Of a stretch of DNA of 22,941 bases, positions 4,668 to 22,941 are shown one piece after another; the stretch's first letter is position 1; each line of letters starts with the position of its first letter. The position numbers and the translations under genes are program-made. This DNA comes from a virus: IMG/VR virus record IMGVR_UViG_3300032116_001370, positions 1 to 22,941 of that record; one strand, written 5' to 3'. The notes under the pieces were generated by a model. That model saw only the letters and a list, made by a program, of their open reading frames with translations, searched no databases and was not told the DNA's origin.

Positions 4668-5813
4668 TTATTGTAAATGCAAGTCTACTAAATCCATTAC
4701 ATGAGGCCATAAATCATTAAATTTTAATTCACTCCATTGATCGTACCAAACAATTTTATCATAAAAATCTTTTTTAGATATAGATGGTTTGGTTTGTAGT
4801 TTCAATGCCTTTTGTATTTCTTCATAACCAAAAATATTGTAATATTGTAAATCGTCGGGATGAATAGCGGTTTGGTGAATTTCAAAGGCACGATTCAATT
4901 TTTCAAGTGCTTCTTTTTTAATTTGTTCTGGCATCAAAAACACATCCATAGTTTGGTTAGAATCAATAGGAATTAAATTAAATTTTTTAACTCCTAACGA
5001 TATTAATTTTTCTATGGTGATATCTATGTCAAATGCACTAAACATACTGTAGACAAAATTTACTGAAACAATGTCAGGAAAGTTTTTGTTTAGATATAAA
5101 AGATTATTTTCTACTTGCGTCCATACTGCTTTATTTCTCACATATTCAAATTGTTTTGCAGTATTTTCTAAACTTACATTCCAAACTAAATTCTTTTTTC
5201 TGGCTATTAAAGAATCAATACAAGGTAATTCTTCTAGATTATATGAAAGATTTGTAATAATAGTGATTTTTGTATCTAAAGGAATCTCGTTCAAAATCTT
5301 ATAATTTTGTTTCATTAACAATGGTTCGCCGCCAACCAGCATTAATTCTTTTAAGTCACTTGAGTGTGTTATTATCCATTCTGCCACCTGATCATAATGA
5401 CTGTCATTGATTCGCGTTTTTGTTTTTATTTCTAAAGCAGATGCCCACACGCTGCTAAACATAGGCGAACAGTACATGCATTGTAAATTACAAATGTTGC
5501 TCCATCTAATGTCTATTACTTTGAGACTAAAATGATCTAAAGATGTTACATTGTAATATCTATTATAGTAATCTCTAAGTGACGGCAATGACTGTTTTTC
5601 TTCTTGCAAACATTTGCTACAGTTTATGCTATCCACTCCATTATTTTTGAAATTTTGTTGTATTTTCAAAAGTTTTTTGGAAGTGACAATATCTTGTATT
5701 GGTATTTCGTTAATATTTCCCAACGTTTTTTGTCCAACACAGCAGGTGCGAATGTCTCCATTTTCTCTAATAGTCAATCCGCTCCACGGCGCAGTACAAT
5801 ACACATTGTTCAT
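4668..5813 (-). CDS. Radical SAM enzyme with N-terminal twitch-like domain
   Basis: 381 residues. The core motif C-N-L-Q-C-M-Y-C (C108, C112, C115) is followed by G-G-E-P at 161-164, both standard for radical SAM enzymes. In front lies a cysteine domain (C6, C24, C25, C65, C68) whose opening (C-T-A-P-W, then N-G-D-I-R-T-C-C) looks like the auxiliary-cluster twitch/SPASM domain that normally sits at the C-terminus. Such N-terminal-twitch radical SAM proteins are known from bacteria and phage metagenomes, but I know of no established function. The gene lies six bases after gp55 and 20 bases before gp47, so it probably shares their transcript. The substrate is unknown; a peptide, protein or sugar modification is possible. 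Confidence 0.9.
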   Translation of the reverse strand: MNNVYCTAPWSGLTIRENGDIRTCCVGQKTLGNINEIPIQDIVTSKKLLKIQQNFKNNGVDSINCSKCLQEEKQSLPSLRDYYNRYYNVTSLDHFSLKVIDIRWSNICNLQCMYCSPMFSSVWASALEIKTKTRINDSHYDQVAEWIITHSSDLKELMLVGGEPLLMKQNYKILNEIPLDTKITIITNLSYNLEELPCIDSLIARKKNLVWNVSLENTAKQFEYVRNKAVWTQVENNLLYLNKNFPDIVSVNFVYSMFSAFDIDITIEKLISLGVKKFNLIPIDSNQTMDVFLMPEQIKKEALEKLNRAFEIHQTAIHPDDLQYYNIFGYEEIQKALKLQTKPSISKKDFYDKIVWYDQWSELKFNDLWPHVMDLVDLHLQ

Positions 5814-6763: not shown

Positions 6764-7735
6764 ATGCCAAAAGTCACGCAAATACTAACTAACCTCGGCG
6801 GTTCATTACGGTCGCTAGCCAATGGACCTGCAAGTAGAGTAGCCGGCTCTGCTCAAGGTATAATCCCAAATAATGGTAATTTTACATCAACCAGCGGCGG
6901 GTTTATACCTGCCAACATTAGAAGAAGTCTTGCAGGTTTGTTACCAGGTGGTCGTGCTGTGCCCAAAGCATTTACCCAAAATCCTGCTGTGCAATTTGGC
7001 TCTAATGATACAGATAATGACTGGCGTGTGAGAGTTAGCATAAATCCTAGTAGTAAAATTTTATATTGGGATTCTGGGTCCACCGGTCTTTTAGCACCTC
7101 TAAGATCAACTGATGGTTTCATATTTCCTTATGTGCCAACTGTGACAGTATCGCATTCTGCAAACTATTCCTCGGTTCCATTAACACATTCAAATTACGC
7201 TCAATATTTTTATGAATCAAGTTCCGTGGCAGCTATTAGTATTAATGGAGACTTTACAGTTCAAAACGTAGAAGAAGGAAAATATTTTTTAGCAGCATTA
7301 TACTTTTTTAGAGCTTGTACAAAAATGTTTTACGGCGCCTCAGGCGAATATCAGGGCAGTCCTCCGCCGATTGTGTATTTAAATGGTTATGGGCAACACT
7401 ATTTACCAAATGTACCATGTGTTGTAACTGGTTTTCAACACACCATGCCCGGTGATGTTGACTATATAGAAGTTATGACTCCTCAGTCTACTACTACCAA
7501 GCAAGTTCAAACCGCTTCAACATATTTTGCTTCACCTGGGCAAACAAACAGTATAACAATAGATCAAACCACTGTGAACAATGCTTTCAATCGAGTGCCC
7601 ACAATAAGCACGTTTAGCCTAACATTACAGCCGGTAATCAGTAGATCGCAAGCCATTGACTTTGATTACAAAGAGTTTGGTCGTGGCGGTCTGATAGTTG
7701 GCAAGAACAATCCATATCCGGGAGGTTATCTATAA
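6764..7735 (+). CDS. Baseplate/tail-tube-cap-like structural protein (gp48/gp54 position)
   Basis: 323 residues, first gene of the late operon. After a Gly/Ser/Pro-rich N-terminus (about 1-80) comes a mostly beta region that I recognise as a conserved structural-protein type of T4-like and other large myophages: N-D-W-R-V-R-V near 84-90, an I-F-P-Y-V-P segment near 120, and later the G-S-P-P-P-I-V-Y-L-N-G-Y-G and D-V-D-Y-I-E-V segments. Size fits T4 gp54 (320) or gp48 (364), which join the baseplate to the tail tube, and the position next to gp53 agrees, but I cannot decide between them. There are no cysteine motifs or membrane segments. The TAA shares a base with the gp53 start (TAATG). Certain as a gene; function by position and general resemblance. 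Confidence 0.65.
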   Translation: MPKVTQILTNLGGSLRSLANGPASRVAGSAQGIIPNNGNFTSTSGGFIPANIRRSLAGLLPGGRAVPKAFTQNPAVQFGSNDTDNDWRVRVSINPSSKILYWDSGSTGLLAPLRSTDGFIFPYVPTVTVSHSANYSSVPLTHSNYAQYFYESSSVAAISINGDFTVQNVEEGKYFLAALYFFRACTKMFYGASGEYQGSPPPIVYLNGYGQHYLPNVPCVVTGFQHTMPGDVDYIEVMTPQSTTTKQVQTASTYFASPGQTNSITIDQTTVNNAFNRVPTISTFSLTLQPVISRSQAIDFDYKEFGRGGLIVGKNNPYPGGYL

Positions 7736-8040
7736 TGGCTCGAGTAAATTATCAGCCCTCAAGTCCCTATTACCAAACAAACAGCTTCGGAGACTTCTTG
7801 GATGTAATGACCAATCGTCCTATATCAAAACTGCCCGATGATGTTTTGTACGAGATTGACAGTGTGTACGAATTTAGACCAGATCTTTTAGCAGCTGACC
7901 TTTATGGTACCAGCTCTTTATGGTGGGTGTTTGCACAACGCAATCCTAATACACTAGTTGACCCTTTGCGTGATTTTGTTGCTGGCACCAGAATCTACAT
8001 ACCTAAAATAGACACACTCAAACAAGAACTAGGGGTGTAA
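7735..8040 (+). CDS. 53: Baseplate wedge protein gp53-like
   Basis: 101 residues, about half of T4 gp53 (196). It keeps the typical core: Y-E-F-R-P-D-L-L-A near 45-53, an L-Y-G-T-S-S-L-W-W-V-F segment near 56-66 and an ending F-V-A-G-T-R-I-Y-I-P, as in the LysM-like part of this family. gp53 locks neighbouring wedges around the hub in the T4 baseplate. The ATG overlaps the previous stop (TAATG), and a GGGAGG stretch about nine bases upstream gives a strong ribosome binding site. The small size means only the core fold is present. Confidence 0.85.
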   Translation: MARVNYQPSSPYYQTNSFGDFLDVMTNRPISKLPDDVLYEIDSVYEFRPDLLAADLYGTSSLWWVFAQRNPNTLVDPLRDFVAGTRIYIPKIDTLKQELGV

Positions 8041-8043
8041 CAG

Positions 8044-10353
8044 ATGGCCTCAGAAGCTAATTTCAGCGGTGATACGGCTAGCACCAACAAAAGCAGTTCG
8101 GTAGTAAGTGCAGGCTCTTCAGGCAATACATCTTCGTTTACTTCAAAGCCTGCAGAGAAAAAACCTTTCAACAAACTGCATGCCTACACAAGTTATACCT
8201 ATAGAATAACTTTATTTTTCTTGACCAGTAAAGATTACAACACGCTTTCAGCTAACCCTAGTAAGTTTACACCTAAACAAGCATTGATAAGTAGCTCAGG
8301 AGGTTATTCCAAAGGAAAAGGCACTAGTGATACAGACACAGTAAGACATCCAGATTTTCGTACGGATTTTTTTATTGACAACTTGTCAATTCAAACCATT
8401 GTGGGGTTGAACGCAAAAAACAAAGCTAGTAACGCCATAGACATAACGTTTACTATCACAGAACCTTACGGACTAAGTCTCTTAGATAGATTGCTAAGTG
8501 CTTGTGAAACTTCAGAAGATCGTAATCCTAACTACGCAACACAACCTTATCTACTGCAAATAGATTTACTAGCCAGTCCAACGGATGACATGTTGTCTAA
8601 ATTCAACAGGACAGACAATTTAATTGACAGAAAAAGGATAGCAATCAAGTTTATAGAAATGAAGATCAAGCCTAGTGCAAGTGGTAGCACCTATTCCTGT
8701 CGGGCTATTCCGTTCAATCACAGCGCATTTGATCAAACAACTGCTCCTACTCCAGTCGTATTGAATGTTGATGCTAAAACTGTAGGCGACTTTTTTTCTA
8801 ATAGCGACGACCAAGCCCAACTGTTCGCAGGAGAATTAAAAGCCCAAGAAGAGAGACTAGAAGCAGACATTCAAAAATGGATAACGCAAAACCCTCAAGT
8901 GACTTCAAGTTATCAAGTAGGAAAGTCTCCCACCGCAGCAGAAATAGCAGAATATAGTAAATCAAAAAAAGCTGCAATTATATATAACACTGGAAGCTAT
9001 ACCGCAGCTTACAATAGATACATGGAAGAAGTGGCAAGTAAAGCCAAAATTACTCAATTTCCTCCCACTAAAATCAGTTTTGTTATGCCCAAAGAAATAG
9101 CTGATTCTAACATCGTTGACGTTAAACGCACACAAAGCACAAATTCAACAATGGGAGATCGTAACAAAGGTGTTCACCAAACTGCAGATTCAGGATTGAA
9201 AAACGTTGAAGCCTATAATATTGCAGCCGGTACAAGTATAATTGAAGTCATTGATCAAGTTTTAGGCAAAAGTGAATATGTTAAAAATCAAATCAATGTT
9301 CAAAATCAATTGAGAGATGAGGAACAAGCCAATCAAGAATATACCAACGGAGCCGAAAGAACTGATAGCAAAGCCAGCCCAAAAAATATCAAATGGTATA
9401 AAATTATTCCTACAGTGGAATTAAAAGATTTTGACATTATAAGAAACAATTACAGCAAGACGGTCAATTATACTATATTACCTTATACAACAGCAAATGC
9501 GTATCATCCAAACTTTCCTAAAACTAAAGGCAATGATGTAGAAAGGCAGGTGGTAAGAGAATACAACTATTTGTATACAGGTAAAAATCAGGATATTACT
9601 CGTGTCGATATTGATTTTGATACCGCTTATTACACACAAATTTCTACCTACAGAGAACAAGTAGCCAGGGGAGGCACTAATAGAACCAGTGATCCCAATG
9701 ATCCTAACAATCCTGCAAATTTGCAGCAACCTAGAACAGAATCAACAGGCACAGTTGTACCACAAACCACCGAAGTAAACGGGTATAATATAAATGCCAC
9801 TGGTATGAATACTGCTACTAATCCTGAAGAAAAACTCGTAGGCGACTTAAAAAATAGCATTTATACAAAATCTCGCGGCGACAATCTCAACATAAAAATA
9901 CAAATAATAGGTGATCCAGATTTTATAAAGCAAGATGATATCTATTATAATCCTAGATCAGAAGAATACCAACAGTTGATTGCTAATAGAGGAATCACGC
10001 CCATAGTGCGAGATGGACCAACTGCCGGCCAAATATTGTTTGATAGCGAACAAGTTTACGTCAAACTAAATTTTAAAAATGCCATAGACATAGATGACAG
10101 CATTGGTATTCAAAACAAACAAGAAATTTTGAGTAACGGTAGAAAAACAGATGGATCATTTAGCGGCATTTACAAAGTTTTGACAGTGCAAAGTGATTTT
10201 AATCGAGGACAATTTACACAGACACTAGATTTAATTAGGATGCCCGATGAGTTACCAAAAGCTTCCACAGCCTCTACTCAACCTGTAAATAATCAAAGTA
10301 GTGATTACTCTGGCAGACAGAGAATATCAACTCAGTCGGGAGCAGAATCCTAA
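8044..10353 (+). CDS. Large baseplate hub-like structural protein
   Basis: 769 residues. The first 40 are Ser/Thr-rich and low in complexity, followed by a beta-rich region beginning T-Y-R-I-T-L-F-F-L. A second Pro/Asn/Thr-rich linker lies at roughly 540-590. The C-terminal part has G-D-P-D-F-I-K-Q-D-D at 623-632 and a closing G-Q-F-T-Q-T-L-D-L-I-R segment near 725-735. This type of ending (a strand pair on 'tests, then Q-T-L-x-L-I-R') is common in tail hub proteins of the gp27/gpD kind. Position just before the gp5-like spike also fits the hub. The starting ATG follows the gp53 stop by three bases with an AGGGG stretch upstream. Structural role likely; equivalence to T4 gp27 is inference. 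Confidence 0.62.
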   Translation: MASEANFSGDTASTNKSSSVVSAGSSGNTSSFTSKPAEKKPFNKLHAYTSYTYRITLFFLTSKDYNTLSANPSKFTPKQALISSSGGYSKGKGTSDTDTVRHPDFRTDFFIDNLSIQTIVGLNAKNKASNAIDITFTITEPYGLSLLDRLLSACETSEDRNPNYATQPYLLQIDLLASPTDDMLSKFNRTDNLIDRKRIAIKFIEMKIKPSASGSTYSCRAIPFNHSAFDQTTAPTPVVLNVDAKTVGDFFSNSDDQAQLFAGELKAQEERLEADIQKWITQNPQVTSSYQVGKSPTAAEIAEYSKSKKAAIIYNTGSYTAAYNRYMEEVASKAKITQFPPTKISFVMPKEIADSNIVDVKRTQSTNSTMGDRNKGVHQTADSGLKNVEAYNIAAGTSIIEVIDQVLGKSEYVKNQINVQNQLRDEEQANQEYTNGAERTDSKASPKNIKWYKIIPTVELKDFDIIRNNYSKTVNYTILPYTTANAYHPNFPKTKGNDVERQVVREYNYLYTGKNQDITRVDIDFDTAYYTQISTYREQVARGGTNRTSDPNDPNNPANLQQPRTESTGTVVPQTTEVNGYNINATGMNTATNPEEKLVGDLKNSIYTKSRGDNLNIKIQIIGDPDFIKQDDIYYNPRSEEYQQLIANRGITPIVRDGPTAGQILFDSEQVYVKLNFKNAIDIDDSIGIQNKQEILSNGRKTDGSFSGIYKVLTVQSDFNRGQFTQTLDLIRMPDELPKASTASTQPVNNQSSDYSGRQRISTQSGAES

Positions 10354-11840
10354 TGCCAACAAATAAACAACTTGGAGTAAAAATACCAGACTGGGCCGGC
10401 GGTGGCTGGCAAGGCGGTGCTTCTGTCAAACTAGATCCTGGACCGTTTTTAGCAATTATCAAGAACAATGCTGATCCTGCCAGACTGGGACGTTTGGCTG
10501 TGTTTGTGCCCGACATAGGTGGTGATGAAGATGATTCTAGTAAATGGTTTATTGTTAGGTATGCTAGTCCGTTTTTAGGAAGTACTCTAGGACTGCCAGG
10601 GTCCGCAGATCCAAACAATTTTGCATTCTCGCAACAAACATATGGATTTTGGGCAGTACCTCCTGATGTAGGAAACTTTGTTTTAATAACTTTTGTTATG
10701 GGTGACCCTACCAGGGGATATTGGTTTGCTTGTGTTCCTAACATGCAGACAACACACATGATACCTGGGTTGGCAAGACCGTTTGGTAACACAATCACTG
10801 GCAAAATTAATGACGATTCTACATTCGGAAAAGGTAGAATTTCCAGCACAAGTTATCTTCCCACAGCTGAACTGGTATCTGAGAATTTTTCAGTAGACAA
10901 TGATCCAAAATTTTACGACCTTCCGAAAGTTGTTCATACATGGCAAGCTAACATTGTTATTGAACAAGGACTTGACCGGGATCCTGTGCGTGGTACTATT
11001 ACAAGTAGCAGTCAAAGAGAAACTCCAAGCCAAGTGATTGGTTTAAGTAGTCCAGGAAGAACAAGTCCCGACACAACTGATTTTCCTAACCTAGATGAGC
11101 TGCTAAAAAACCAAAGTTTAAGCATATCCACAGTGCAAACCTTCCCTAACAGAAAAGGCGGCCACTCGCTGGTAATGGATGACGGTGACATTTATGGTCA
11201 AAGCAGATTGTTAAGACTACGAAGCAGCAGTGGTCATCAAATCTTGATGCATGACACAGAAGATTTAATTTATATCAGCAATAGTAAGGGAACAGCGTGG
11301 GTTGAATTGACGCCAGATGGTAGTGTAAACGTTTTTAGTAATAGCAATGTTAGTATTAGAGCACAGCAAGATTTAAATTTACACGCAGACAACAACGTGA
11401 ATATTACCAGCGGCAATTCGATCAAAGTATCTGCAAACAAATATTTTTTAAACGAAACCCAACATTATCAACTTACTGCAACAAAAAATTATGCTCTCAA
11501 TGCAGGCAACGTTGGAATAAAAAGCGGAACCACGTTGCTGATGGAAGCAGTGGCTGGCGGATGGAAAACAAGTGCAGATCTTGTGCTTAAAGGCAGGAAA
11601 ATATTTTTAAACACCAGTACACCAGCATCGCCATTGACCAATCTACCTTTGGAATTTTATCAACAGGCCAATGTGGAATATGACAACAACACAAAACTGT
11701 GGAAAACATCAAGTACATTGTTTGAAAGTTTATCACCGTTTGCACCCACTCACGAACCGTGGACCAGGCAAACCGGCAAACTCAAAAAAAACAGCGGTAA
11801 AATTGTTGCACCCAAACCACAGACGCCAGGAAAAACATAA
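10353..11840 (+). CDS. 5: Baseplate spike protein, gp5/VgrG-like, without lysozyme domain
   Basis: 495 residues. The N-terminal 30-130 region (A-R-L-G-R-L-A-V-F-V-P-D, later G-N-F-V-L-I-T-F-V-M-G-D-P) is the OB-fold type found at the start of gp5 and VgrG. From about residue 270 (S-L-V-M-D-D-G-D, G-H-Q-I-L-M-H-D-T) the chain passes into a long run of short repeats such as V-S-I-R-A-Q-Q-D-L-N-L and N-V-N-I-T-S-G-N-S-I-K-V, the triple-stranded beta-helix needle that pierces the outer membrane. T4 gp5 (575 residues) has a lysozyme domain between these parts; no lysozyme motif is visible here, and the next gene has a lysozyme-like segment instead. Both ends overlap neighbours by one base (TAATG). 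Confidence 0.85.
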   Translation: MPTNKQLGVKIPDWAGGGWQGGASVKLDPGPFLAIIKNNADPARLGRLAVFVPDIGGDEDDSSKWFIVRYASPFLGSTLGLPGSADPNNFAFSQQTYGFWAVPPDVGNFVLITFVMGDPTRGYWFACVPNMQTTHMIPGLARPFGNTITGKINDDSTFGKGRISSTSYLPTAELVSENFSVDNDPKFYDLPKVVHTWQANIVIEQGLDRDPVRGTITSSSQRETPSQVIGLSSPGRTSPDTTDFPNLDELLKNQSLSISTVQTFPNRKGGHSLVMDDGDIYGQSRLLRLRSSSGHQILMHDTEDLIYISNSKGTAWVELTPDGSVNVFSNSNVSIRAQQDLNLHADNNVNITSGNSIKVSANKYFLNETQHYQLTATKNYALNAGNVGIKSGTTLLMEAVAGGWKTSADLVLKGRKIFLNTSTPASPLTNLPLEFYQQANVEYDNNTKLWKTSSTLFESLSPFAPTHEPWTRQTGKLKKNSGKIVAPKPQTPGKT

Positions 11841-12949
11841 TGTCTAATGCCGGTATAACAAGTGCAAGTAATTTTACGGTAATCAATCCTGCCAATCGTG
11901 AAGTATTGGCCAATGTGTCGTCGCCTAGAGGAATTGGTTTAGAAAAATTTAAACCCAACATTGAAACTCTTACAAAATTTGAAACCAAGTGTATACAGGT
12001 TCAAATAAGCAACATTGAAAGCAACATAAACGCCAACCTGGTTGGAATTGGAGTTCCGCAACTGGGACCGTTTACTGCCAATATAAACGCCAATACTGTG
12101 GTTTCACATGCAAACACATACTTTGCAAACGTGGCCACATTGATTATTACCAACTCCGATCACAGAGATATACAATTAGGCATGGTAGCTAACATTCGTA
12201 GTCCTAGTACCGGAAGATTTGGCAGCAATACCATGGTCATCCAAAAATCTGTAGGAGGCAACATTACCTCGGGCAATTTTGTTCCTGGCTTTACGTACAC
12301 TATTACCAGTATTGGTACTACTAATTTTACACTATTTGGATTGCCGGGCAATGTTGCTAATGTGATAATTGGAAACACATTCGTAGCCAATGCTGCAGGA
12401 AACGGCACCGGAACAGCATTTTTAACTAACAATCAAATAATGTTAGGGAGTAATCATACAGTAAGCGGCGATGTAACTTTTACTATTTCCCCTTTAAAAT
12501 TAGGAAAGTATCAGACATCAGAGTGGTTGTTGACTAGATACGGATACAAAAAAGCAGATGGTACATGGGCAGCTAAAGATGGAGTAGATACTAATGATGT
12601 TTTTGTGTCTGCTGCAGAAGTGCAAGACGCTATAATGAATGATTTTATGCAAGAGCAGTATAGAGAACTTATCAAAGCAGGTGCCATAAGAGATGGCGAC
12701 AGTAAAGAAACTATAGCTGGTATGTTGGCACTGGCCTATCAATATCAAGATCTAGGCAATCCAGCTCTCAATCAAAATCCTCGCAAACCAGATGGCACAA
12801 TCAATTTAGAAAACTATTCTATAGCCACCAAGGCAAATGTTTGGCGAAATACCGGGCAACCTTTAGACAGTCAAGGACGCCCCGGGCACATATATTTTAA
12901 CGGCGGACGTTACGCTATTGGCACCCTTGGTGCAGATACCCCAGAATAA
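11840..12949 (+). CDS. Putative tail lysozyme-like protein with an inserted repeat module
   Basis: 369 residues. Residues 221-307 (L-G-K-Y-Q-T-S-E-W-L-L, then D-G-T-W-A-A-K-D-G-V, a Q-D-A-I-M segment and a closing G-M-L-A-L-A-Y-Q-Y) resemble the helical part of phage tail muramidase-like domains, in which G-K-Y-Q follows shortly after a catalytic E-S. Here an E-S pair exists at 60-61, but about 150 residues separate it from G-K-Y-Q. Residues 147-194 of that gap are a copy of the module shared with gp6 and the giant protein. The gene directly follows the spike gene that lacks lysozyme, so it may supply that activity in trans. Activity is uncertain; without the E60 match it may be purely structural. 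The start overlaps the gp5 stop (TAATG), with AGGA upstream. Confidence 0.55.
   Translation: MSNAGITSASNFTVINPANREVLANVSSPRGIGLEKFKPNIETLTKFETKCIQVQISNIESNINANLVGIGVPQLGPFTANINANTVVSHANTYFANVATLIITNSDHRDIQLGMVANIRSPSTGRFGSNTMVIQKSVGGNITSGNFVPGFTYTITSIGTTNFTLFGLPGNVANVIIGNTFVANAAGNGTGTAFLTNNQIMLGSNHTVSGDVTFTISPLKLGKYQTSEWLLTRYGYKKADGTWAAKDGVDTNDVFVSAAEVQDAIMNDFMQEQYRELIKAGAIRDGDSKETIAGMLALAYQYQDLGNPALNQNPRKPDGTINLENYSIATKANVWRNTGQPLDSQGRPGHIYFNGGRYAIGTLGADTPE
12278..12421 (+). repeat. Shared module, copy in the lysozyme-like protein
   Basis: Protein-level repeat at residues 147-194. Key residues are P-G-F-T-Y-T-I, then I-G-T-T-N-F-T-L-F-G, and a tail G-N-G-T-G-T-A. The same layout occurs in gp6 and in the giant downstream protein. 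DNA identity is low, so this is a homologous domain rather than a recent duplication. Confidence 0.8.
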
Positions 12950-12952
12950 ATA
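12945..12952 (+). promoter_or_regulatory. Late promoter box before gp25
   Basis: AATAAATA overlaps the TAA stop of the lysozyme-like gene (12947-12949). The ATG of gp25 follows at 12958, which is about where transcription from a T4-type late promoter would begin, so a transcript from here would be almost leaderless. No Shine-Dalgarno is visible before gp25. It may be a true promoter or a chance match across the stop codon. Confidence 0.5.
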
Positions 12953-12957
12953 CAAAC

Positions 12958-13338
12958 ATGGCCATTACTAGATACCGAGGTTTTAGCACTATTGACAAGC
13001 TCAAAAAGTTTAGACTAACTGATTTAGAGTTAATTAAGCGCGACTTGCTCAATAATTTTGCCATTAGAAAAGGCGAAAAATTAATGAATCCAGAATTTGG
13101 CAGTATAATCTGGAACATTTTGTTTGAGCCCTTAACCGCTGACGTCAAAGCATTGGTTGTCGAGGATATTCAACGAGTTGTAAATTATGATCCTAGGGTA
13201 AGAGTGGACAATATACTAATTGATCAATTTGAATACGGTTTACAGATTCAAGTTGAAATGACATTTTTGCCCGATGATCTAAGTGACGTACTCACTCTTC
13301 AATTTAACAAAGAATTGAACTCTGTGATAGCCGTTTAA
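12958..13338 (+). CDS. 25: Baseplate wedge protein gp25-like
   Basis: 126 residues, near T4 gp25 (132). The characteristic block I-R-K-G-E-K-L-M-N-P-E-F-G-S-I-I-W at about 37-53 followed by F-E-P-L identifies the gp25/GpW/TssE family, whose E-P motif binds the sheath initiator. The N-terminus Y-R-G-F-S-T-I-D is also usual. gp25 sits in the wedge and nucleates the contractile sheath. It lies eight bases after the preceding stop with no obvious ribosome binding site, so translation may be coupled or leaderless. It precedes gp6 just as T4 gene 25 precedes gene 6. Confidence 0.95.
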   Translation: MAITRYRGFSTIDKLKKFRLTDLELIKRDLLNNFAIRKGEKLMNPEFGSIIWNILFEPLTADVKALVVEDIQRVVNYDPRVRVDNILIDQFEYGLQIQVEMTFLPDDLSDVLTLQFNKELNSVIAV

Positions 13339-13358
13339 AAGTACCACTTTATTATTTC

Positions 13359-13366
13359 GATAAATA
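13359..13366 (+). promoter_or_regulatory. Late promoter box before gp6
   Basis: GATAAATA lies in the 47-base gap between gp25 and gp6 and matches seven of eight bases of the T4 late consensus TATAAATA. The expected start is near 13372, giving a leader of about 14 bases before the ATG at 13386. It is the best placed of the three boxes. Confidence 0.72.
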
Positions 13367-13385
13367 CAAAATACGGGTATAAAGT

Positions 13386-16300
13386 ATGGCTATAACTACA
13401 AGACAAACAAGTTTATTAGTCCAACAAGATTGGACCAAAGTTTATCAAACTTTCAGAGAAGCTGATTTTCAAAGTTTTGATTATGAAACTTTACGTAAGT
13501 CAATGATTGAATACTTACGTACCTATTATCCAGAAGATTTCAATGATTTTACAGACAGTTCTGAATACATTGCACTCATTGATCTTTTAGCTTTTCTAGG
13601 TCAAAGTTTAGCATTTAGAGCTGATCTAAATGCCAGAGAAAATTTCTTAGATACTGCAGAGCGTAGAGACAGCATATTAAAACTAGCAAGATTAGTTAGT
13701 TACAACCCAAAAAGAAGTACACCTGCTTCTGGATTTTTAAAATTTGACAGTGTAAGCACAACAGAAACATTGTTTGACAGCACCGGCATCAACTTGAGTA
13801 ATGTTATTATTACCTGGAATGATAGCACAAATGAAAACTGGTTAGAGCAATTTACTGCAATTATTAATGCTGCACTGGTAGCTAATCAGGCAGTTGGCAA
13901 ACCAGGAGCAACAAAAAATCTCAATGGCATAAAAACAGATGAATATGCTGTAGATATTGTAGCAGGTATTACACCAACTTACCCATTTACAACCAGCATT
14001 GCTGGTGTGACCTATCCCTTTGAAGCAGTAAGTGCTACATCGTTAAATCAGGAATACATTTATGAGGCAGAACCAAGTACATCTGCTTCGTTTAATATTT
14101 TATACAGAAACGACAATCAAGGTAATTCAAGTAACAATACTGGATATTTTTTCTATTTTAAACAAGGTGCGCTTAATTCATTAGATTTTAATATTACTGA
14201 AAGTTTGTCAAATCGTATTGTTAACGTAAATTTTGATAATATTAATAACACCGATGTTTGGTTATATAGTTTAACATCAAGCGGAAACTTGGACACACTC
14301 TGGACGCAAGTTCCTGCTGTGAATGGAATAAATGTCATTTATAACAATACCGACCAACGAAATCTTTATAGCGTAGCATCAAGAGCAAATGATCAAATTG
14401 ATTTAGTTTTTGGCGACGGCTCGTTTACAAATATTCCAGTAGGCAGCTTCAGAGTTTACTATCGAACCAGTAACAACTTAACTTACAAAATTACACCAGA
14501 CGAAATGTCAGGAATAACAATAGTTCTACCTTACAGAGGCAGAACTGGTCGAGCAGAAACATTGACTGTTAGAGCTAGTTTACAATATACAGTAACTAAT
14601 GCGATCTCAAGAGAAAGTCTTGATGAAATTAGAACAAAAGCACCTCAACAGTATTATACACAAAATCGCATGGTCACTGGCGAAGACTACAATGTTTTGC
14701 CATTTACAACCTTTAGTAATATATTAAAATTAAAGGCAACTAATAGGACCAGTTCGGGAGTAAGTAGATATCTTGATGTTATAGACGCAACTGGAAAATA
14801 TTCAAGTACAAATATTTTTGCTGAAGATGGTGTAATCTATCGAGAAGATTATGAAGAAACAGAAGTATTTCAGTTTACTAGCACAACAGAAGTAAACGCT
14901 ATTGTTAGGAACACGCTTCAACCTTTAATTTCAAGTATCACTACGCGACATTTATATTATAATACTGCTACTAGAAACAGTCCGCTAGGATCTACTATTG
15001 TGGCCACAAGCATGGTAGTTGGAACAACCTACAAAATCATAAGTGTAGGATCAACCAATTTTACAAGTTTTGGAGCATCATCAAACACAGTTGGCACTAT
15101 TTTCAAAGCCACAGCCGTGGGCACTGGGACAGGAACTGTGGCGACAGTGGGTGTATGGACACAAACTTCTGCCAGTTCTGGACGTAGTTCGGGTACTTTT
15201 ACAAGTCCTAACTATACATTTTTAGTTCAAGGTAGTTTGGTGAAATTTATTGCACCAGCTGGAAAATATTTTGATGCACAGAATCAATTACAATCTGGGA
15301 CACCAGAAACAGAATATCAACGTACAAGTTTGTGGGCCAGCATTATAGACTACAACAATCCAGGGTTATCATCTACAGCCACACTAAGTGTGATTGTGCC
15401 TACTGGAGCAATTGTAAGTGAAATTATTCCCGTTTTTGCGAACGACTGGCCAGAGTCATTGATTAACAGTATTATTTTACAAATTTTAAGTTACAAAACA
15501 TTTGGACTAAGATACGATATACCTACCATGACATGGACAATTATTGAAAGTCAAAATCTTGGTTCAGGTAGTTTTAGTTTAACAAACGCCGGCAGCACTG
15601 CTGGAACTGGTGCAGACAACAGCTGGTTTATTAGTTTATCGTTTGCCAATGGTGAATACACTGCTATTAGTAGAGGTATAGATTATTATTTTCAAAGTGA
15701 AAGAGAGACAAGATTTTACTTTGATCCCGATGTACGAGTGTACGACAGTAGGACTGCAACCACGTTAGTTGATTTTATTAAAGTTCTAAGAATTAATACC
15801 GAGCCGGACTCTAGCAACGCACTTTTTTACAGTCAAACCTATAGAATTTGGAATAGAGCTATAGGGGCAGATGGAATTGATGATAACAGAAAAATTAAAA
15901 TAACTTTTCCAGATGACAATTTAGATGAGGTACCCGACGATCCTGATTTATTTTTAGAATTAGTTGATCCATCTGTTAATCCTGAAAATAAAAACGTTTA
16001 CTTTATTGAATCTGTTGATCAATATAATTTTTTACGATACGATCCAGTGGATCAAACGCAAATTGTTGGTACATTTCAAACCAAAACAGATATTTTAAAT
16101 AATATTTCTTTGTATGCAGCCGGAACTATTTTTTATGCAAGTCTTGGCGATGCGGCTGTCCCAGCTGAAAATGGACCTACATTTTACCAGTCTACAGGAA
16201 GCTCATTGACAGTAGTATCTAATTACATTGCTAGAGTAGGAAGACAAAATTTAAAGTTTCAATACAAACACAACGCACCCAATAATAGAAGAATTGATCC

Positions 16301-16868
16301 TAGTCCTAACAATCTGATTGATTTTTATATTCTTACTAAAACATATTCTAATGATTATTTTGCTTATTTGTCTGACACAAGTAACAAAGTAAGTAAACCT
16401 ACAGCGCCTTCAATTGCAGAGCTTAAAACAGAGTTTGGGTCAATTGAAGCACTTAAGACTATTAGTGATAGTATAATATATAATCCTGCGGTGTTTAAAC
16501 CATTATTTGGTAACAAAGCAGACGCCGCACTACGAGCCACTTTTAAAGTGATCAAAAATCCAAATCTCACAATAAGTGACAACGAAGTCAAAAGCCAAGT
16601 TATCGCGGCCATTAACACATACTTCGACATTAACAACTGGGACTTTGGCGAAACATTTTACTTCAGTGAGTTGAGCGCATATTTACATACTGCGTTAGTA
16701 CCTTACGTGAGCAGTATTATTATAGTTCCATCAAATACTGACAGTAGATTTGGTACATTATATCAGATAAATGCGGACCCCGACGAGATACTTGTAAGTG
16801 CAGCCACAGTGGATAATGTACAAATAATACCTGCGATTACAGCAGCACAATTGAATATAACTGGTTAA
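13386..16868 (+). CDS. 6: Baseplate wedge protein gp6-like, enlarged
   Basis: 1160 residues against 660 in T4. Residues 1-120 carry the hallmark gp6 block: L-R-K-S-M-I-E-Y-L near 38, Y-P-E-D-F-N-D near 49, L-L-A-F-L-G-Q-S-L-A-F-R-A-D-L-N near 68-83 and L-A-R-L-V-S-Y-N-P-K-R near 100-110. The C-terminus (about 1045-1160) has the typical N-N-W-D-F-G-E-T-F-Y-F-S-E-L segment. gp6 forms the iris-like ring that joins the wedges and changes shape at contraction. The middle is expanded, including a 44-residue copy of the module shared with neighbours at 543-586. Preceded by a late promoter box and, 18 bases after its stop-proximal base, followed by the next gene. No frameshift. Confidence 0.93.
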   Translation: MAITTRQTSLLVQQDWTKVYQTFREADFQSFDYETLRKSMIEYLRTYYPEDFNDFTDSSEYIALIDLLAFLGQSLAFRADLNARENFLDTAERRDSILKLARLVSYNPKRSTPASGFLKFDSVSTTETLFDSTGINLSNVIITWNDSTNENWLEQFTAIINAALVANQAVGKPGATKNLNGIKTDEYAVDIVAGITPTYPFTTSIAGVTYPFEAVSATSLNQEYIYEAEPSTSASFNILYRNDNQGNSSNNTGYFFYFKQGALNSLDFNITESLSNRIVNVNFDNINNTDVWLYSLTSSGNLDTLWTQVPAVNGINVIYNNTDQRNLYSVASRANDQIDLVFGDGSFTNIPVGSFRVYYRTSNNLTYKITPDEMSGITIVLPYRGRTGRAETLTVRASLQYTVTNAISRESLDEIRTKAPQQYYTQNRMVTGEDYNVLPFTTFSNILKLKATNRTSSGVSRYLDVIDATGKYSSTNIFAEDGVIYREDYEETEVFQFTSTTEVNAIVRNTLQPLISSITTRHLYYNTATRNSPLGSTIVATSMVVGTTYKIISVGSTNFTSFGASSNTVGTIFKATAVGTGTGTVATVGVWTQTSASSGRSSGTFTSPNYTFLVQGSLVKFIAPAGKYFDAQNQLQSGTPETEYQRTSLWASIIDYNNPGLSSTATLSVIVPTGAIVSEIIPVFANDWPESLINSIILQILSYKTFGLRYDIPTMTWTIIESQNLGSGSFSLTNAGSTAGTGADNSWFISLSFANGEYTAISRGIDYYFQSERETRFYFDPDVRVYDSRTATTLVDFIKVLRINTEPDSSNALFYSQTYRIWNRAIGADGIDDNRKIKITFPDDNLDEVPDDPDLFLELVDPSVNPENKNVYFIESVDQYNFLRYDPVDQTQIVGTFQTKTDILNNISLYAAGTIFYASLGDAAVPAENGPTFYQSTGSSLTVVSNYIARVGRQNLKFQYKHNAPNNRRIDPSPNNLIDFYILTKTYSNDYFAYLSDTSNKVSKPTAPSIAELKTEFGSIEALKTISDSIIYNPAVFKPLFGNKADAALRATFKVIKNPNLTISDNEVKSQVIAAINTYFDINNWDFGETFYFSELSAYLHTALVPYVSSIIIVPSNTDSRFGTLYQINADPDEILVSAATVDNVQIIPAITAAQLNITG
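15012..15143 (+). repeat. Shared module, copy in gp6
   Basis: Residues 543-586 of gp6: V-V-G-T-T-Y-K-I, then V-G-S-T-N-F-T-S-F-G-A, N-T-V-G-T-I-F-K-A-T and a tail G-T-G-T-G-T-V. It is the least degraded copy and gives the clearest outline of the module. It sits in the enlarged middle region, away from both conserved ends of gp6. Confidence 0.85.
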
Positions 16869-16869
16869 T

Positions 16870-16873
16870 AGGA
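16870..16873 (+). promoter_or_regulatory. Ribosome binding site of the giant gene
   Basis: AGGA stands six bases (all A) before the ATG at 16880, between the gp6 stop and the next gene. It supports 16880 as the start of the long frame. Confidence 0.7.
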
Positions 16874-16879
16874 AAAAAA

Positions 16880-19800
16880 ATGGCTGTTTTTAAAACTTTA
16901 CAATTTTTACCTGAGATTTTTAGAACAGATACGAATAGAAAGTTCTTACACGCTACCGCTGATCAGTTATTAAGTGAACCAGATTTTACTAGAATAAACG
17001 GATACATTGGAAGAAAGTTAGCACCTTCTTATAGAAGCACAGACAGTTATGTTAGTGAACCTACAAAAGACAGACAAGATTATCAACTTGAACCTAGTGT
17101 TATAATTAAAGATACGGTAACTGGTAATGTAGAATTCGTTACAACCTATACTGACCTATTAAACAAAATAAATTTTTACGGCGGATTAAGTGATAATCAT
17201 TCACGTTTATTTGATAGTGAATATTATTCGTTTGATCCTCAAATTGATTTAGACAAATTAATAAATTTTGCTCAGTATTATTGGTTAGCTAACGGTCCAG
17301 ACACAGTTACAGTGACAGCAAGCACAGTTCCGTTACAGCAAACTTTTGATGTGACATATGATTCTGTATCAAAAACCTATAAATTCAGCGGGTTCAATCA
17401 AGCTCCAAATCCAATTATTACATTGGCCAGGGGCGGACGATATGTGTTTCAAATCAATGAACCAGGAAATAAATTTTACATACAATCTGGCCCTGGGTCG
17501 TTAGGCGCTGATATAAATGCGCCTAACTTGTCTACTAGATCAGTGTTTGGTGTTACTGATAACGGCAAAGATGTAGGAAGTGTAATATTCCAGGTACCAT
17601 TGGCAGATTCTCAAGTTAATTGGACTAACATGAGAATAATTGACACTGTAGATTATGCTACTGATCACAGCTATCAGTCTTTACAAGGTTGTTTATTGAG
17701 TGATCTTGAAACCCTACTGGGAGGAATTGATGGTCCTACGTTTTCTCTAAATGGAGCCAGTTTAATCTTTGTTAATACTGCTTTCATAGACGATGTCTTC
17801 TGGCACGATACAGCTAGAGTTTTAAATGATGTAATTTACTTAGATCAAGACGTATTAATACCGTTTAATGAAAGAAACGATGTTTATCAAATTTCAGTAT
17901 ACAACGACGAGGATGATAAACCAAGAATCTACCTAACTAGAAAAACCACAGTATTAAATGAACAAAAGGTTAGAGTAATTTCAGGTGCTGCCAATGCTGG
18001 TAAAGAATTCTACAGTAGATTAGATGTTTATTACGAAGTTCCTCAGATTACAGCCCCTCTAAGTTTTTTATATTACCAAAGCGATCAAACTGATCAAGCA
18101 GTTGGAGGTATTCAATTGGTTGATTTAGAATTGGCAGAAATTGATCCTGATTTAGATATAATTGGTCAAAAGAATTATGTTAGTCCAAACGGCGTAGTTT
18201 TTACCAATGGTCTCAAAATACAATTTGATTCTACTGCTACTGAATCTTACGCAAATAAAACTTTTTATGTAGAAGGAGTAGGCGACTCAATCAAGTTGAT
18301 AGCAGAAGCTGACTTGGTAGTCCCTGAAGATAACAATAATAACTTGGCATCTCTTGATTACATTACTATTAATAGAAGTAGTATTGATTTAAATGGTTGG
18401 TCAAGAAGCAATAGATGGTTTCATGTAAATGTAATTGAAAAAACAGCTGAATACAATAATACGGATTTGATCCTAAATCAAAGTTATAGAGCACAGCGAC
18501 CAATTTTAGAATTTTATCCAAACATTCAATTATTTAATTTTGGAACTGAAGCCAAAGCACCAGTTGACATATTAGACGACTTGATTACAAATGCTTACAC
18601 ACAAGTGCAAGGTGTTATTGTGGCAGGTCCGCCAGATCCACCCACTGAACTCACTATAAGTTTAATTAGAAATTCGTCAGACCTTGTTGTAGGAAGAACC
18701 TATGATATCACTACATTAGGAACAAGCAACTGGTCCACAGTTGGTGCATCTTTGATTTCTGCAGCTGGTTTAGAAATAGGAAGTCAATATATTATTGCCA
18801 TGGTAGGAAATACTAATTGGACTTCAATTGGTGCAGCAAGCAGTATTGCTGGCACTGTATTTACAGCCACTGGAATAGAAACGGGCACTACCGGCACAGC
18901 ATACAAAGTAAGATTCACAGCCACCGGAACAACCGCTGGTACTGGTTCGGCCACAGATGTTCAGTCTCTTACATTAACGCACGGTGACAGGATTATTTTC
19001 AGTCAAGATGAAAATCTTGAGGTCAGAAATAAAATTTTTACGTTTTCAATAGTAGAGGCATCTACTCCCTCACCAGTTACATCAATTTATAGAGCCTATA
19101 TTGAAGAAGCCAATGATGCTCTAGTCAGTGAAGGCCACACCATTGTGGTCAATAGCGGTGTAAACGGACAGAAACAATGGCATTTCAATGGCACCAATTG
19201 GATAGAAAGCCAACAAAAAACGTCAGTCAACCAACCTCCTTTGTTTGACGTAATCAACAGTGATGGTGTCAGTTTTAGCGACTTTTCAGTTTATAACGGT
19301 TCACAGTTTTTGGGCACCAAAATATTTTCCTACAAAGAAGGAACAGGAAGCAACGACAGTGTATTAGGTTTTCCGGTTAGTTATAAAAATTTGCTAACTC
19401 AAGGAGACATAGAATTTGAAAACAATTTCAACCTAGATACTTTTACCTATTTCTTATTAGGAGGTATAGCTCAGACTGTCAACATCAATACTGGATTTTT
19501 ACAAAAAAATCTATCTAGATCTACAAGTACTAGAACTAACAATTGGGTAATTAATAACAATTTTAGCAAACAATATCAAATTTTTAATTTTGTTTATGAC
19601 GGATCTACAAACTTATTTCCAGTAGATATTCTACCAGACATCAGCGTAGAAATTCCTAATATCAAAGTTGTGATCAATAACAAACCAGTAGCAGTTGGTA
19701 AATTTGCAATAACAAAAGCTGTTGATAAATTGGCTATTCTAATAGATCCTTCTTTACTGACAGTAAATGATGTTATTTTTATTAGCATCTATAATAAAAC

Positions 19801-22800
19801 TGCGGTATCAGATACAGCATTTTATCAAATACCTGTAAATTTAGATGTGAACAGTCTAAATTTAGATATTGATGTACTAACACTAGGTCAGGTAAGAAAT
19901 CATTTAATTGAATTCAAAAATAACAGTTTAGACATTGTTGGAGAAGTACCAGGCAAAAGTAATATCAGAGATATAAAATACTCGGCTAGGGGTGGTAGTA
20001 TTTTGCAACAAAGTGCTCCTATAATATATTCTAGTCTATTTCTCAATCATCCTGTAGCTAATTTTATTGATTCGATTAGACTTGCATCTAAAGAATACAA
20101 TCAATTTAAAATAAAATTTTTAGAACTTGCTGTTAACCTCGATCTTGACACCAATAACGTGTCTGAATCTGTTGATGCAATAATGGCCACCATCAACGCT
20201 GTTAAAAACGACAGTTTTCCTTGGTATTACAGTGATATGATTCCGCACGGAGACGATGACAAAGTAACTTTGCCAAGTTACCAAGTTTTTGACACTGATA
20301 TAAGATCCTATGAAATTACCAATATATTTCAAGATAATGTTATCAGTAACAAAGCAGTTTTTGTGTATCTTACACGCACACTAGATGGAGTAACATCAAA
20401 AACATTACTGGTTAAAGAGCAAGATTATTACTTTGATCAAACCAGGCCAGCAGTGGTTATCCAAGATACATTTAATCTTCTTTATAATGATATTTTAACG
20501 ATTGTAGAATACAATAACACAGACGGTAGTTATGTTCCGGAAACACCAACAAAACTGGGATTGTACCCAAAATTTGTTCCAGAAATTTATTTAGACAATA
20601 CCTATCAAACACCAATACAGGTAATTCAAGGACATGACGGTAGTATTACTCCAGCATTTGGTGATCACAGAGATACCTTTCTATTAGAACTAGAAAGAAG
20701 AATTTACAACAATATCAAAGTTGAGTATGATATTAATTTGTTTAACATCAACGATTATGTTCCAGGTAAATTTAGAATCTTAGATTACACACTAAATGAA
20801 TACAACCATTTGTTAAGCCAAAGTTTTTTACGATGGGTAGGCACCAACAGAGTTGATTACACTACCAATGATGTGTTTACCGCGTCAGATGCTTTTACAT
20901 GGAATTACAAAAAATTCAAAGATGTTGTTAACGCAGAAAATTTACCAGGTACTTGGCGTAGTGTATTCAGATATTTCTTTGATACAGATCGCCCACATAC
21001 TCATCCCTGGGAAATGTTAGGATTTAGTCAAAAGCCCGACTATTGGAATGATAGGTATGGACCTGCTCCTTATACCGGCGGGAACTTTGTACTCTGGAGC
21101 GATTTAGAATCAGGATACATTCACAGCGGAGCTCGTGCCGGCATTGATCTAAGGTATAGTCGCCCAGGACTTACCTCAATTATTCCAGTCGATGACAGCG
21201 GAAATCTAAGACCCCCTTCGGAATTTTTGGTAACAGATTTTTCAAGCGACAAAGCAAATACCAGTTATGCAGTTGGCGATATTGGACCAACTGAATTAAG
21301 TTGGCGTAGAAGCAGTGATTTTCCATATGCTGTTCAATATGCCTTAGCAATTGGTAAACCAGCACGTTATTTTTCATTATTGTCTGATGTAAAAAAATAC
21401 TATAGAAATGATGTGCTTGGCCAATTTTTAGATGTTGACAATAACAAGCACTTACAACCAACCAGCATAAGAGTCAACGGTTACACTGATTCCAGCGGCA
21501 CAATAAATCGAAGTGCAGGTTATGTGAACTGGATAAGAGATTATGTAAAAAATACTGGCATAAGCGATGCCAGTGATTATGTCAAAAACATATTGAATAA
21601 CATATCAGTTCAGTTATGCTACAAGATGGCAGGGTATTCAGATAAAAAATTCTTAGAATTACTAGCTGAACAGGTTAGCCCAAGCAGTATCAATGACAGC
21701 ATCATTATTCCTGACGAAAATTATTCTATTGAATTATACAAAGGAGCACCTCTTGCAAAAATAGTTTATTCTGCTGTAATTGTGGAAAAAACTGCAAATG
21801 GATATACAGTGAGTGGATATAATACCAATGATCCTTATTTCAGGATTATTCCTAGTTTAGAAAATAACAATGCTTACAAAATAAATGTAAGTGGTAAGTC
21901 TGCTACTGTGTTTAAAGATTCAAGAAGAATTGTACAAACTATTCCTTATGGATTTGAATATAGTACAACACAGCAAGTTGTTGACTTTTTAATTAGTTAC
22001 CAAAGGTACCTCTTATCTCAAGGATTCACATTTGATGATAGAGAAAACTTACTGAACGAAGTTAAAAATTGGGTGTTAAGCGCCAAAGAATTTTTATATT
22101 GGACTAGCCAAGGTTGGAAATCTGGAAACATTATAGTTCTCAGCCCTATATCCGACACGTTGAAAATTACTAGTTCCAATTCACAGGTTGACGAGATAGT
22201 TAATACGCCAACTGGTAGTAGGCTAATGGATGTGAATTACAAACCAATTGTGAAAAATAACTTTACAATTGTTAGAGATACCAACGAATTTGTTGTTCGT
22301 GCAATATCAAATCAAACAATTGGATTCGCTGAACTAAATCTAGTGCAGTACGAACATATTTTAATTCTAGATAATGTTACTGTTTTCAGGGACGTAATTT
22401 ATCTTCCAGAATCTGGAAATAGACAATATAGAATTAAAATGGTCGGCGCAAAAACCAGTCAATGGAACGGCAGTTTAGAATTGCCAGGCTACATTTACAG
22501 CAGCGACGAAATAACTGAGTGGTCGCCCGGAGTAGATTACCTCAAAGGTACTATAATTAATTACAAGCAAAGATACTATGCTGCTTTAGAAAACATCAGT
22601 GCAGCTGATAGTTTTCAAGTTAAAAGTTGGGAGTTATTGGCCAACAATGAAATAAAAACTGGTATTTTGAACAACCTGGCAACAAATGCAGCCCAGTCAC
22701 TTCGTTTTTACGATATCAATGATCAACCTATCAATGAAGAAATTCAGTTGTTCAGTAATGGATTAATTGGATTTAGACCTAGACAATATTTTACAAATCT

Positions 22801-22941
22801 AGGTATTGACGTCACTACTCAAAGTAAATTTTATCAAGGCTTAATAAAACAAGGCGGATCTTTAAACGCAATCAATGCTTTAAAAGGAGCCACATTTAAC
22901 AACTTGGATACTAGTCCTTTAAACTTGTATGAAAATTGGGC
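16880..22941 (+). CDS. Giant baseplate/virion structural protein, gene 7 position (3' end beyond window)
   Basis: Starts M-A-V-F-K-T-L-Q-F-L-P-E-I-F and appears open through the last base, 2020 codons; I translated it throughout and saw no stop. It follows gp6 where T4 has gene 7 (1032 residues), so it may be the functional counterpart, but I see no motif that proves homology. The N-terminus (R-K-F-L-H-A-T-A-D-Q-L, later F-D-P-Q-I-D-L-D-K-L and Y-Y-W-L-A-N-G-P-D) is a type I recognise from large structural proteins of marine T4-like phages. The chain is beta-rich, with few cysteines and no membrane segment. Residues 603-691 hold a double copy of the shared module, and 1881-1917 a W/Y pattern like a small carbohydrate-binding domain. 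A role in the baseplate periphery or host contact is inference. Confidence 0.85.
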   Translation, partial: MAVFKTLQFLPEIFRTDTNRKFLHATADQLLSEPDFTRINGYIGRKLAPSYRSTDSYVSEPTKDRQDYQLEPSVIIKDTVTGNVEFVTTYTDLLNKINFYGGLSDNHSRLFDSEYYSFDPQIDLDKLINFAQYYWLANGPDTVTVTASTVPLQQTFDVTYDSVSKTYKFSGFNQAPNPIITLARGGRYVFQINEPGNKFYIQSGPGSLGADINAPNLSTRSVFGVTDNGKDVGSVIFQVPLADSQVNWTNMRIIDTVDYATDHSYQSLQGCLLSDLETLLGGIDGPTFSLNGASLIFVNTAFIDDVFWHDTARVLNDVIYLDQDVLIPFNERNDVYQISVYNDEDDKPRIYLTRKTTVLNEQKVRVISGAANAGKEFYSRLDVYYEVPQITAPLSFLYYQSDQTDQAVGGIQLVDLELAEIDPDLDIIGQKNYVSPNGVVFTNGLKIQFDSTATESYANKTFYVEGVGDSIKLIAEADLVVPEDNNNNLASLDYITINRSSIDLNGWSRSNRWFHVNVIEKTAEYNNTDLILNQSYRAQRPILEFYPNIQLFNFGTEAKAPVDILDDLITNAYTQVQGVIVAGPPDPPTELTISLIRNSSDLVVGRTYDITTLGTSNWSTVGASLISAAGLEIGSQYIIAMVGNTNWTSIGAASSIAGTVFTATGIETGTTGTAYKVRFTATGTTAGTGSATDVQSLTLTHGDRIIFSQDENLEVRNKIFTFSIVEASTPSPVTSIYRAYIEEANDALVSEGHTIVVNSGVNGQKQWHFNGTNWIESQQKTSVNQPPLFDVINSDGVSFSDFSVYNGSQFLGTKIFSYKEGTGSNDSVLGFPVSYKNLLTQGDIEFENNFNLDTFTYFLLGGIAQTVNINTGFLQKNLSRSTSTRTNNWVINNNFSKQYQIFNFVYDGSTNLFPVDILPDISVEIPNIKVVINNKPVAVGKFAITKAVDKLAILIDPSLLTVNDVIFISIYNKTAVSDTAFYQIPVNLDVNSLNLDIDVLTLGQVRNHLIEFKNNSLDIVGEVPGKSNIRDIKYSARGGSILQQSAPIIYSSLFLNHPVANFIDSIRLASKEYNQFKIKFLELAVNLDLDTNNVSESVDAIMATINAVKNDSFPWYYSDMIPHGDDDKVTLPSYQVFDTDIRSYEITNIFQDNVISNKAVFVYLTRTLDGVTSKTLLVKEQDYYFDQTRPAVVIQDTFNLLYNDILTIVEYNNTDGSYVPETPTKLGLYPKFVPEIYLDNTYQTPIQVIQGHDGSITPAFGDHRDTFLLELERRIYNNIKVEYDINLFNINDYVPGKFRILDYTLNEYNHLLSQSFLRWVGTNRVDYTTNDVFTASDAFTWNYKKFKDVVNAENLPGTWRSVFRYFFDTDRPHTHPWEMLGFSQKPDYWNDRYGPAPYTGGNFVLWSDLESGYIHSGARAGIDLRYSRPGLTSIIPVDDSGNLRPPSEFLVTDFSSDKANTSYAVGDIGPTELSWRRSSDFPYAVQYALAIGKPARYFSLLSDVKKYYRNDVLGQFLDVDNNKHLQPTSIRVNGYTDSSGTINRSAGYVNWIRDYVKNTGISDASDYVKNILNNISVQLCYKMAGYSDKKFLELLAEQVSPSSINDSIIIPDENYSIELYKGAPLAKIVYSAVIVEKTANGYTVSGYNTNDPYFRIIPSLENNNAYKINVSGKSATVFKDSRRIVQTIPYGFEYSTTQQVVDFLISYQRYLLSQGFTFDDRENLLNEVKNWVLSAKEFLYWTSQGWKSGNIIVLSPISDTLKITSSNSQVDEIVNTPTGSRLMDVNYKPIVKNNFTIVRDTNEFVVRAISNQTIGFAELNLVQYEHILILDNVTVFRDVIYLPESGNRQYRIKMVGAKTSQWNGSLELPGYIYSSDEITEWSPGVDYLKGTIINYKQRYYAALENISAADSFQVKSWELLANNEIKTGILNNLATNAAQSLRFYDINDQPINEEIQLFSNGLIGFRPRQYFTNLGIDVTTQSKFYQGLIKQGGSLNAINALKGATFNNLDTSPLNLYENW
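18686..18952 (+). repeat. Shared module, composite copy with one module nested in another
   Basis: Residues 603-691 of the giant protein. The outer copy starts V-V-G-R-T-Y-D-I and L-G-T-S-N-W-S-T-V-G-A (18686-18769), breaks after S-A-A-G, and resumes as R-F-T-A-T-G-T-T-A-G-T-G-S-A (18908-18952). The piece between is a further full copy. Confidence 0.75.
18770..18907 (+). repeat. Inner, complete copy of the shared module
   Basis: Residues 631-676 of the giant protein: I-G-S-Q-Y-I-I, then V-G-N-T-N-W-T-S-I-G-A, A-G-T-V-F-T-A-T-G and a tail G-T-T-G-T-A. It interrupts the outer copy just before that copy's F-T-A-T-G part. Confidence 0.75.
22520..22630 (+). other. Possible carbohydrate-binding-like segment in the giant protein
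   Basis: Residues 1881-1917 show W-S-P-G-V-D-Y-L-K-G-T-I, then I-N-Y-K-Q-R-Y-Y-A-A-L, and a final W. This W / Y-x-x-G-x-x-I-x-Y-x-x-x-x-Y-x-A / W spacing is like small CBM5/12-type domains found in chitinases and phage tail proteins. The match is by pattern only. Confidence 0.4.

Follow-up and report, generated by a model that had tools for sequence, protein, structure and literature searches.

A probable insertable domain family in virion proteins of environmental phages, with one copy nested inside another

Background

Rickettsia palindromic elements are short in-frame inserts in unrelated genes, and the immunoglobulin-like (Ig-like) beta-sandwich is a protein fold of roughly 80-100 residues. 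Structural proteins of phages can bear Ig-like domains, which have been proposed to help the phage cling to cell surfaces (PMC10385173, citing Fraser et al. 2006), and domain mosaicism in phage tail fibres, spikes, and baseplates has been surveyed relying largely on ECOD domains (PMC10684548). Here, we describe a module of 46 residues that recurs in three open reading frames (ORFs) of a 22,941-base IMG/VR virus record with T4-type baseplate genes (IMGVR_UViG_3300032116_001370, positions 1 to 22,941, the whole of which is called the window below), namely a hub/tail-lysozyme-associated protein, the baseplate wedge protein gp6, and a giant virion structural protein. We then follow the module into environmental phage contigs, named phage records, and prokaryote genomes, and weigh what kind of element it may be.

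Results

The three window ORFs share one domain family. With the gp6 copy as query, a six-frame search of the window retrieved a complete "inner" copy in the giant protein (E 6e-10), the hub copy (E 9e-8), and half of a second, "outer" copy in the giant protein (E 8.5e-4). A hidden Markov model (HMM) profile built from the hub and inner giant copies only recovered the gp6 copy at an independent E-value (i-E) of 1.2e-11 and the outer giant half at 7e-5, against a cut-off of E 1e-3 for profile matches. The best remaining window ORF for that profile reached E 0.46, and the final profile gave at best E 0.012 on residue-shuffled versions of all fetched ORFs. Neither the six-frame nor the profile search found a copy in the neighbouring baseplate and tail ORFs at 6764-7735, 7735-8040, 8044-10353, 10353-11840, and 12958-13338.

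All copies and their host ORFs lie on the plus strand. The hub copy occupies 12269..12418 (residues 144-193; HMM i-E 1e-16, also matched in six frames) and has an acceptor loop longer by 4 residues (GLPGNVANVIIGNTF), and the gp6 copy occupies 15003..15140 (residues 540-585; HMM i-E 2e-20). In the giant protein, the N-terminal half of the outer module lies at 18674..18754 (residues 599-625; a partial HMM match to positions 2-26), the inner module at 18761..18901 (residues 628-674; HMM i-E 1e-14), and the C-terminal half of the outer module at 18902..18952 (residues 675-691), where a weak HMM match to positions 32-46 aligns with the C-terminal half of the single copy found in orthologs. These positions differ by only a few residues from those given in a preliminary description, made from the window sequence, which had placed copies in the same three proteins.

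Across 79 copies, the conserved positions are, in order, mainly A, G, Y, I, G, T, F, G, N, G, F, A, G, and G, and a typical module reads AGSFVVGTTYTIxSVGTTNFTxIGAASNTVGVxFTATGVGSGTGTA. Using alignments made in this analysis, AlphaFold2 modelled the gp6 module (14991-15158) with a predicted local distance difference test (pLDDT) of 95.7 and a predicted template modelling score (pTM) of 0.81, in the order strand, short helical turn, strand, helix, strand, strand. The prediction is thus a compact four-stranded fold with helical turns that would fold autonomously, and the first and last strands may pair, so that the module ends would come together. The window copies and the consensus had no match beyond chance in Pfam and PHROGs (for the consensus, no Pfam match at E<=1), a sequence search of the PDB returned nothing for the module, and the best Foldseek probability against the PDB was 0.02, for a 56-residue query of limited sensitivity. 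These negatives rule out a known family in Pfam, PHROGs, or the PDB and agree with the earlier remark that no named family was known; in the open-access papers searched, likewise, we found no described family or motif string matching the module. Against predicted viral structures, Foldseek matched 13 phage proteins at probability >= 0.95 and query-normalized TM-scores (TMq) of 0.71-0.93, most of them uncharacterized proteins from uncultured Caudovirales.

Orthologs with and without the module identify it as an in-frame loop insert. In gp6, module-free orthologs are 54-70% identical to the window protein, and the nearest of them have an empty site in which ATRYT is joined directly to PTGTWTQ, where the window and its closer kin carry about 64 residues more. 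By ortholog alignment, the whole insert lies at approximately 14976..15167 on the plus strand, about residues 531-594, and comprises the module and ~18 linker residues, 64 in all; correspondingly, the phrog_10646 match spans 913 residues over 850 profile positions. Module-free gp6 orthologs are still mostly 1,096-1,138 residues long, and therefore the module cannot account for the far smaller size of T4 gp6, which the preliminary description had noted. On a gp6 tree of 68 rows built without the insert, module presence needs three changes, one of which belongs to an outlier row (L070) that carries its module elsewhere in the protein. The most parsimonious history is therefore a single gain and a single loss, the latter in a 23-row clade. 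Some gp6 orthologs (L009:3369-6977, L011, and L149) are also longer at the C-terminus, which in L009 is a glycine/serine-rich tail (GGGGGSSGGGSGG...) not present in the window gp6. At least four further host families contain filled and empty pairs, e.g., L233/L244 versus L258/L247, L077 versus L074, L103 versus L095, and L209 versus L190. The fibres of S-TIM54 and S-TIM5/66 are too diverged for their comparison to show a clean empty site, and a candidate case of two different sites in one head-closure family was dropped, as L082 and L209/L268 do not align convincingly.

The two copies in the giant protein do not lie side by side; one is nested within the other, which the preliminary description had missed: the outer copy reads SDLVVGRTYDITTLGTSNWSTVGA, then a complete second copy, then KVRFTATGTTAGTGSATD. 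Among giant-protein orthologs, L101, L103, and L119 carry one uninterrupted copy and many carry none. These single copies are 54-67% identical to the outer copy versus 38-46% to the inner one, and the simplest reading is therefore that the outer copy received the inner one as an insert. On a giant-protein tree of 25 rows, six changes are needed, with the none, single, and other states interchanging; one origin suffices for the nested state, on a weakly supported branch. When single and nested copies were aligned together, MAFFT misaligned them, while the nested rows alone aligned cleanly, and an AlphaFold2 model of the nested segment from seven sequences reached pLDDT 92.0 and pTM 0.82. In this model, the outer copy runs as strand 8-10, strand 19-24, helix 30-33, strand 90-92, and strand 102-105, interrupted by the inner copy as strand 37-39, strand 48-53, helix 59-62, strand 72-74, and strand 85-88. 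Inner, outer, and single-module patterns are identical, which speaks against the possibility, raised beforehand, that the segments fold differently, and the split outer copy is predicted to reassemble around the inner one. With the nested model as query, Foldseek mostly found again the proteins matched by the single module, with low TM-scores, and none of the matches was clearly a nested relative.

The same module loop is split by another copy in the unrelated proteins L278 and L280, the former resembling a tip attachment J protein by eye and having no family match. In a further protein (L068:6779-10150, residues ~245-335; no Pfam match), that loop is split by a different motif, GxIxGTTLTxT...GQxIxGxGIxPGTxI. 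Separately, the giant-protein orthologs L105 and L108 have different inserts at the giant-protein site that look similar to this one.

Beyond the window, pattern scans of IMG/VR, whose contigs are partly redundant, identified 163 contigs carrying the module, and a query nearer to the typical module gave at least 569; that query came from a closer subset, since a more diverse set did not suit a pattern scan. A pattern scan of 84,980 prokaryote genomes yielded 23 contigs, and 3 of 50,697 named phage records carried the module at the sensitivity of tblastn, i.e., cyanophage S-TIM54, a cultured phage of Synechococcus WH8102 (profile score 65.9 bits), and two metagenome-derived Manatee Spring records (70.3 bits for the first). 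The consensus itself gave no tblastn match among named phages, probably because of the low-complexity filter; natural sequences as queries did match, and a near-consensus query edited by hand retrieved the three records again. From the best 80 copies per scan, a sample biased to consensus-like copies, we assembled 219 loci with 269 ORFs and 341 copies, whose host proteins form 44 single-linkage clusters once the module is masked. With host classes taken from PHROG matches of cluster representatives, all hosts with a functional category are head, connector, or tail proteins, including baseplate wedge gp6, hub/lysozyme-associated, giant virion, tail sheath, sheath stabilizer, head closure Hc3, head-tail adaptor Ad1, minor tail, central tail fibre J, tail fibre, and tail spike proteins. 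Replication, transcription, and metabolic proteins were absent among the PHROG-annotated hosts; several clusters had no annotation. The module is thus not confined to the three window genes, and its anticipated sporadic occurrence at loops of many unrelated virion proteins is borne out by these 44 clusters and by at least five host families in which the site is filled in some members and empty in others.

On bacterial contigs, the few hosts with domain matches carry fn3 and GEVED, multicopper oxidase and fn3, Big domains, or autotransporter repeats and, judged by these domains, look secreted or surface-exposed. Some of the contigs from the genome scan may instead come from phages and have been binned with bacterial sequence. 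One ORF of 2,704 residues in a proteobacterial metagenome-assembled genome (L183:2-8113) has eight near-tandem module copies, and no Pfam domains were found in it.

At the protein level, the module is under purifying selection, with synonymous sites near saturation. Across 17 gp6 orthologs, the median proportions of nonsynonymous (pN) and synonymous (pS) differences are 0.18 and 0.70 in the module, and 0.11 and 0.75 in the rest of gp6. Copies in unrelated hosts share roughly 40-80% protein identity and at most 80% DNA identity, and equal-length copies in different host clusters never exceed 80% in DNA, bar two contig fragments; this 99% identical pair was discarded as a recent transfer, since the fragments apparently belong to one protein. 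No recent horizontal transfer, sought as cross-host DNA identity above 80%, was therefore seen in this sample. The only young event is apparently a recent tandem duplication, in which two adjacent copies (L169:1-3606) are 87% identical in DNA. The window copies have neither inverted nor direct repeats, and their DNA folds no better than shuffles (z -0.02 to -1.7). Given the low cross-host DNA identity and the absence of repeats and excess folding, the spread of the module is old or rare and bears no sign of a DNA-level element. The preliminary idea that the module has been moving between structural genes for a long time fits these data in respect of age, but in gp6 the copy has stayed at its site through vertical inheritance, and the sample holds no recent transfer.

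As for the host ORFs, the earlier label "lysozyme-like" for the hub protein (11840..12949, 369 aa) is backed by a 64-residue match, at residues 239-302, to the PHROG "baseplate hub subunit and tail lysozyme" (phrog_27932, E 1.8e-9). The gp6-like protein (13386..16868, 1160 aa) belongs with the T4-type gp6 baseplate wedge by its matches to phrog_10646 (E 7e-301) and phrog_219 (E 3e-24); a sequence search of the PDB gave no match for it, and the insert thus has no sequence-based mapping onto T4 gp6. The giant protein (16880..22939, open at the contig end) matches phrog_10938 (E 5e-225). Elsewhere in the window, ORFs that look radical SAM-like by eye (163-1260 and 4668-5813, minus strand; CxxxCxxC-type motifs) flank gp46/gp47-like recombination genes, which a short-chain dehydrogenase-like ORF, also recognized by eye (1257-1862, minus strand), adjoins.

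Discussion

We regard it as very probable that the module is an insertable virion domain family, and give about an even chance to the fuller reading, in which it also has an adhesive or display role. In that reading, a small beta domain that folds autonomously would sit as an in-frame insert in the surface loops of virion proteins, retained as a displayed accessory domain and having probably spread by rare illegitimate recombination among phage structural genes followed by long vertical descent. Placed on the virion exterior, it might work like phage Ig-like domains, many weak contacts with cell-surface or environmental polymers holding the phage near its hosts. Several points weigh against this account. 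Sheath stabilizer, head closure, and head-tail adaptor hosts are non-adhesive proteins, and the module's replacement rate, ~1.6 times that of its host gp6, fits folding constraint as well as ligand binding. The 23-row gp6 clade lacks the module and shows nothing visible in its stead, which makes the module dispensable in that clade.

With sheath, neck, and adaptor proteins among the hosts, and with whole clades lacking the module, the main rival is a loop passenger or spacer. On this view, the module is a compact domain whose ends let it enter a loop while the host fold stays intact; it is retained mainly because, once present, it has to fold correctly, and it thickens or spaces the virion surface with no ligand. 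This is possible in our view, and it would account for the breadth of hosts, for the gains and losses among giant-protein orthologs and the absence from an entire gp6 clade, and for conserved residues that are mostly glycines and hydrophobics. Strong purifying selection in gp6 over a saturated synonymous distance exceeds what an idle spacer needs, however, as does the protein identity retained across unrelated hosts whose DNA has diverged. Specific contacts between virion subunits, for which the module would have been recruited repeatedly as a "molecular staple" of assembly or stability, would suit its presence in interlocking baseplate and neck proteins and in three nearby baseplate genes of one genome; yet we consider this improbable, as interfaces differ by host while the domain consensus barely changes, and gp6 and giant-protein orthologs in otherwise similar phages do without it.

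Much less credible is a selfish DNA micro-element that inserts in frame like Rickettsia palindromic elements and yields the peptide as a by-product. Constant-length in-frame inserts in unrelated genes, and insertion of the module into itself, are what such an element would produce, but the repeat, folding, and DNA-identity evidence led us to reject it, and both the protein-level selection and the confinement of hosts to virion or surface proteins point the same way. That G-, T-, and S-rich beta segments, which the BLAST low-complexity filter probably masks, resemble each other through composition has next to no plausibility: the profile E-values and shuffle control refute chance or low complexity, and the fixed spacing of Y, I, F, N, and A and the confident common predicted fold argue against it as well.

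Within the displayed-domain reading, a more specific and doubtful proposal concerns the nesting. The loop between the "GA" turn and the "G-x-F-x-A-T" strand might be a standard socket for further copies or other small virion modules, which would make the module a self-accepting display unit that builds nested decorations on otherwise conserved virion proteins and would give uncultivated phages a set of interchangeable parts for adhesion. Whatever its role, self-nesting at one loop position in three unrelated hosts shows domain-in-domain insertion as it occurs in nature. The module is present on hundreds of environmental phage contigs, yet it has neither a family nor a solved structure, probably because isolates are nearly without it and low-complexity filters mask it. 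If the family were named, loops in gp6 and in sheath, neck, and fibre proteins could be annotated, and differences in length among orthologs would be easier to explain.

Comparison with known systems

Among described systems, Rickettsia palindromic elements resemble the module as short in-frame inserts in unrelated genes, but the module has no palindromic DNA or conserved DNA sequence and is selected at the protein level. Domain mosaicism as surveyed in phages (PMC10684548) likewise concerns shuffled protein fragments in host-contact proteins; the module differs in having no solved relative, in occurring also in sheath, head-closure, and adaptor proteins, and in lacking recent exchange in this sample. 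A further parallel is with phage Ig-like domains, which are also small accessory domains found in many unrelated virion proteins, sporadic among close relatives, and tied to no conserved host function, and for which weak cell-surface binding has been proposed, as we suggest conditionally for the module. Unrelated virion hosts and sporadic presence, the latter in gp6 and the giant protein, are thus features in common, whereas the beta-sandwich is not: the module is about half the size, has another predicted fold and no Ig or fn3 match in Pfam or the PDB, and is an internal loop insert with copy nested in copy. By size and by search it is not an Ig-like domain and at most works like one; if it does bind surfaces, it would be a second, smaller counterpart to the phage Ig-like domains.

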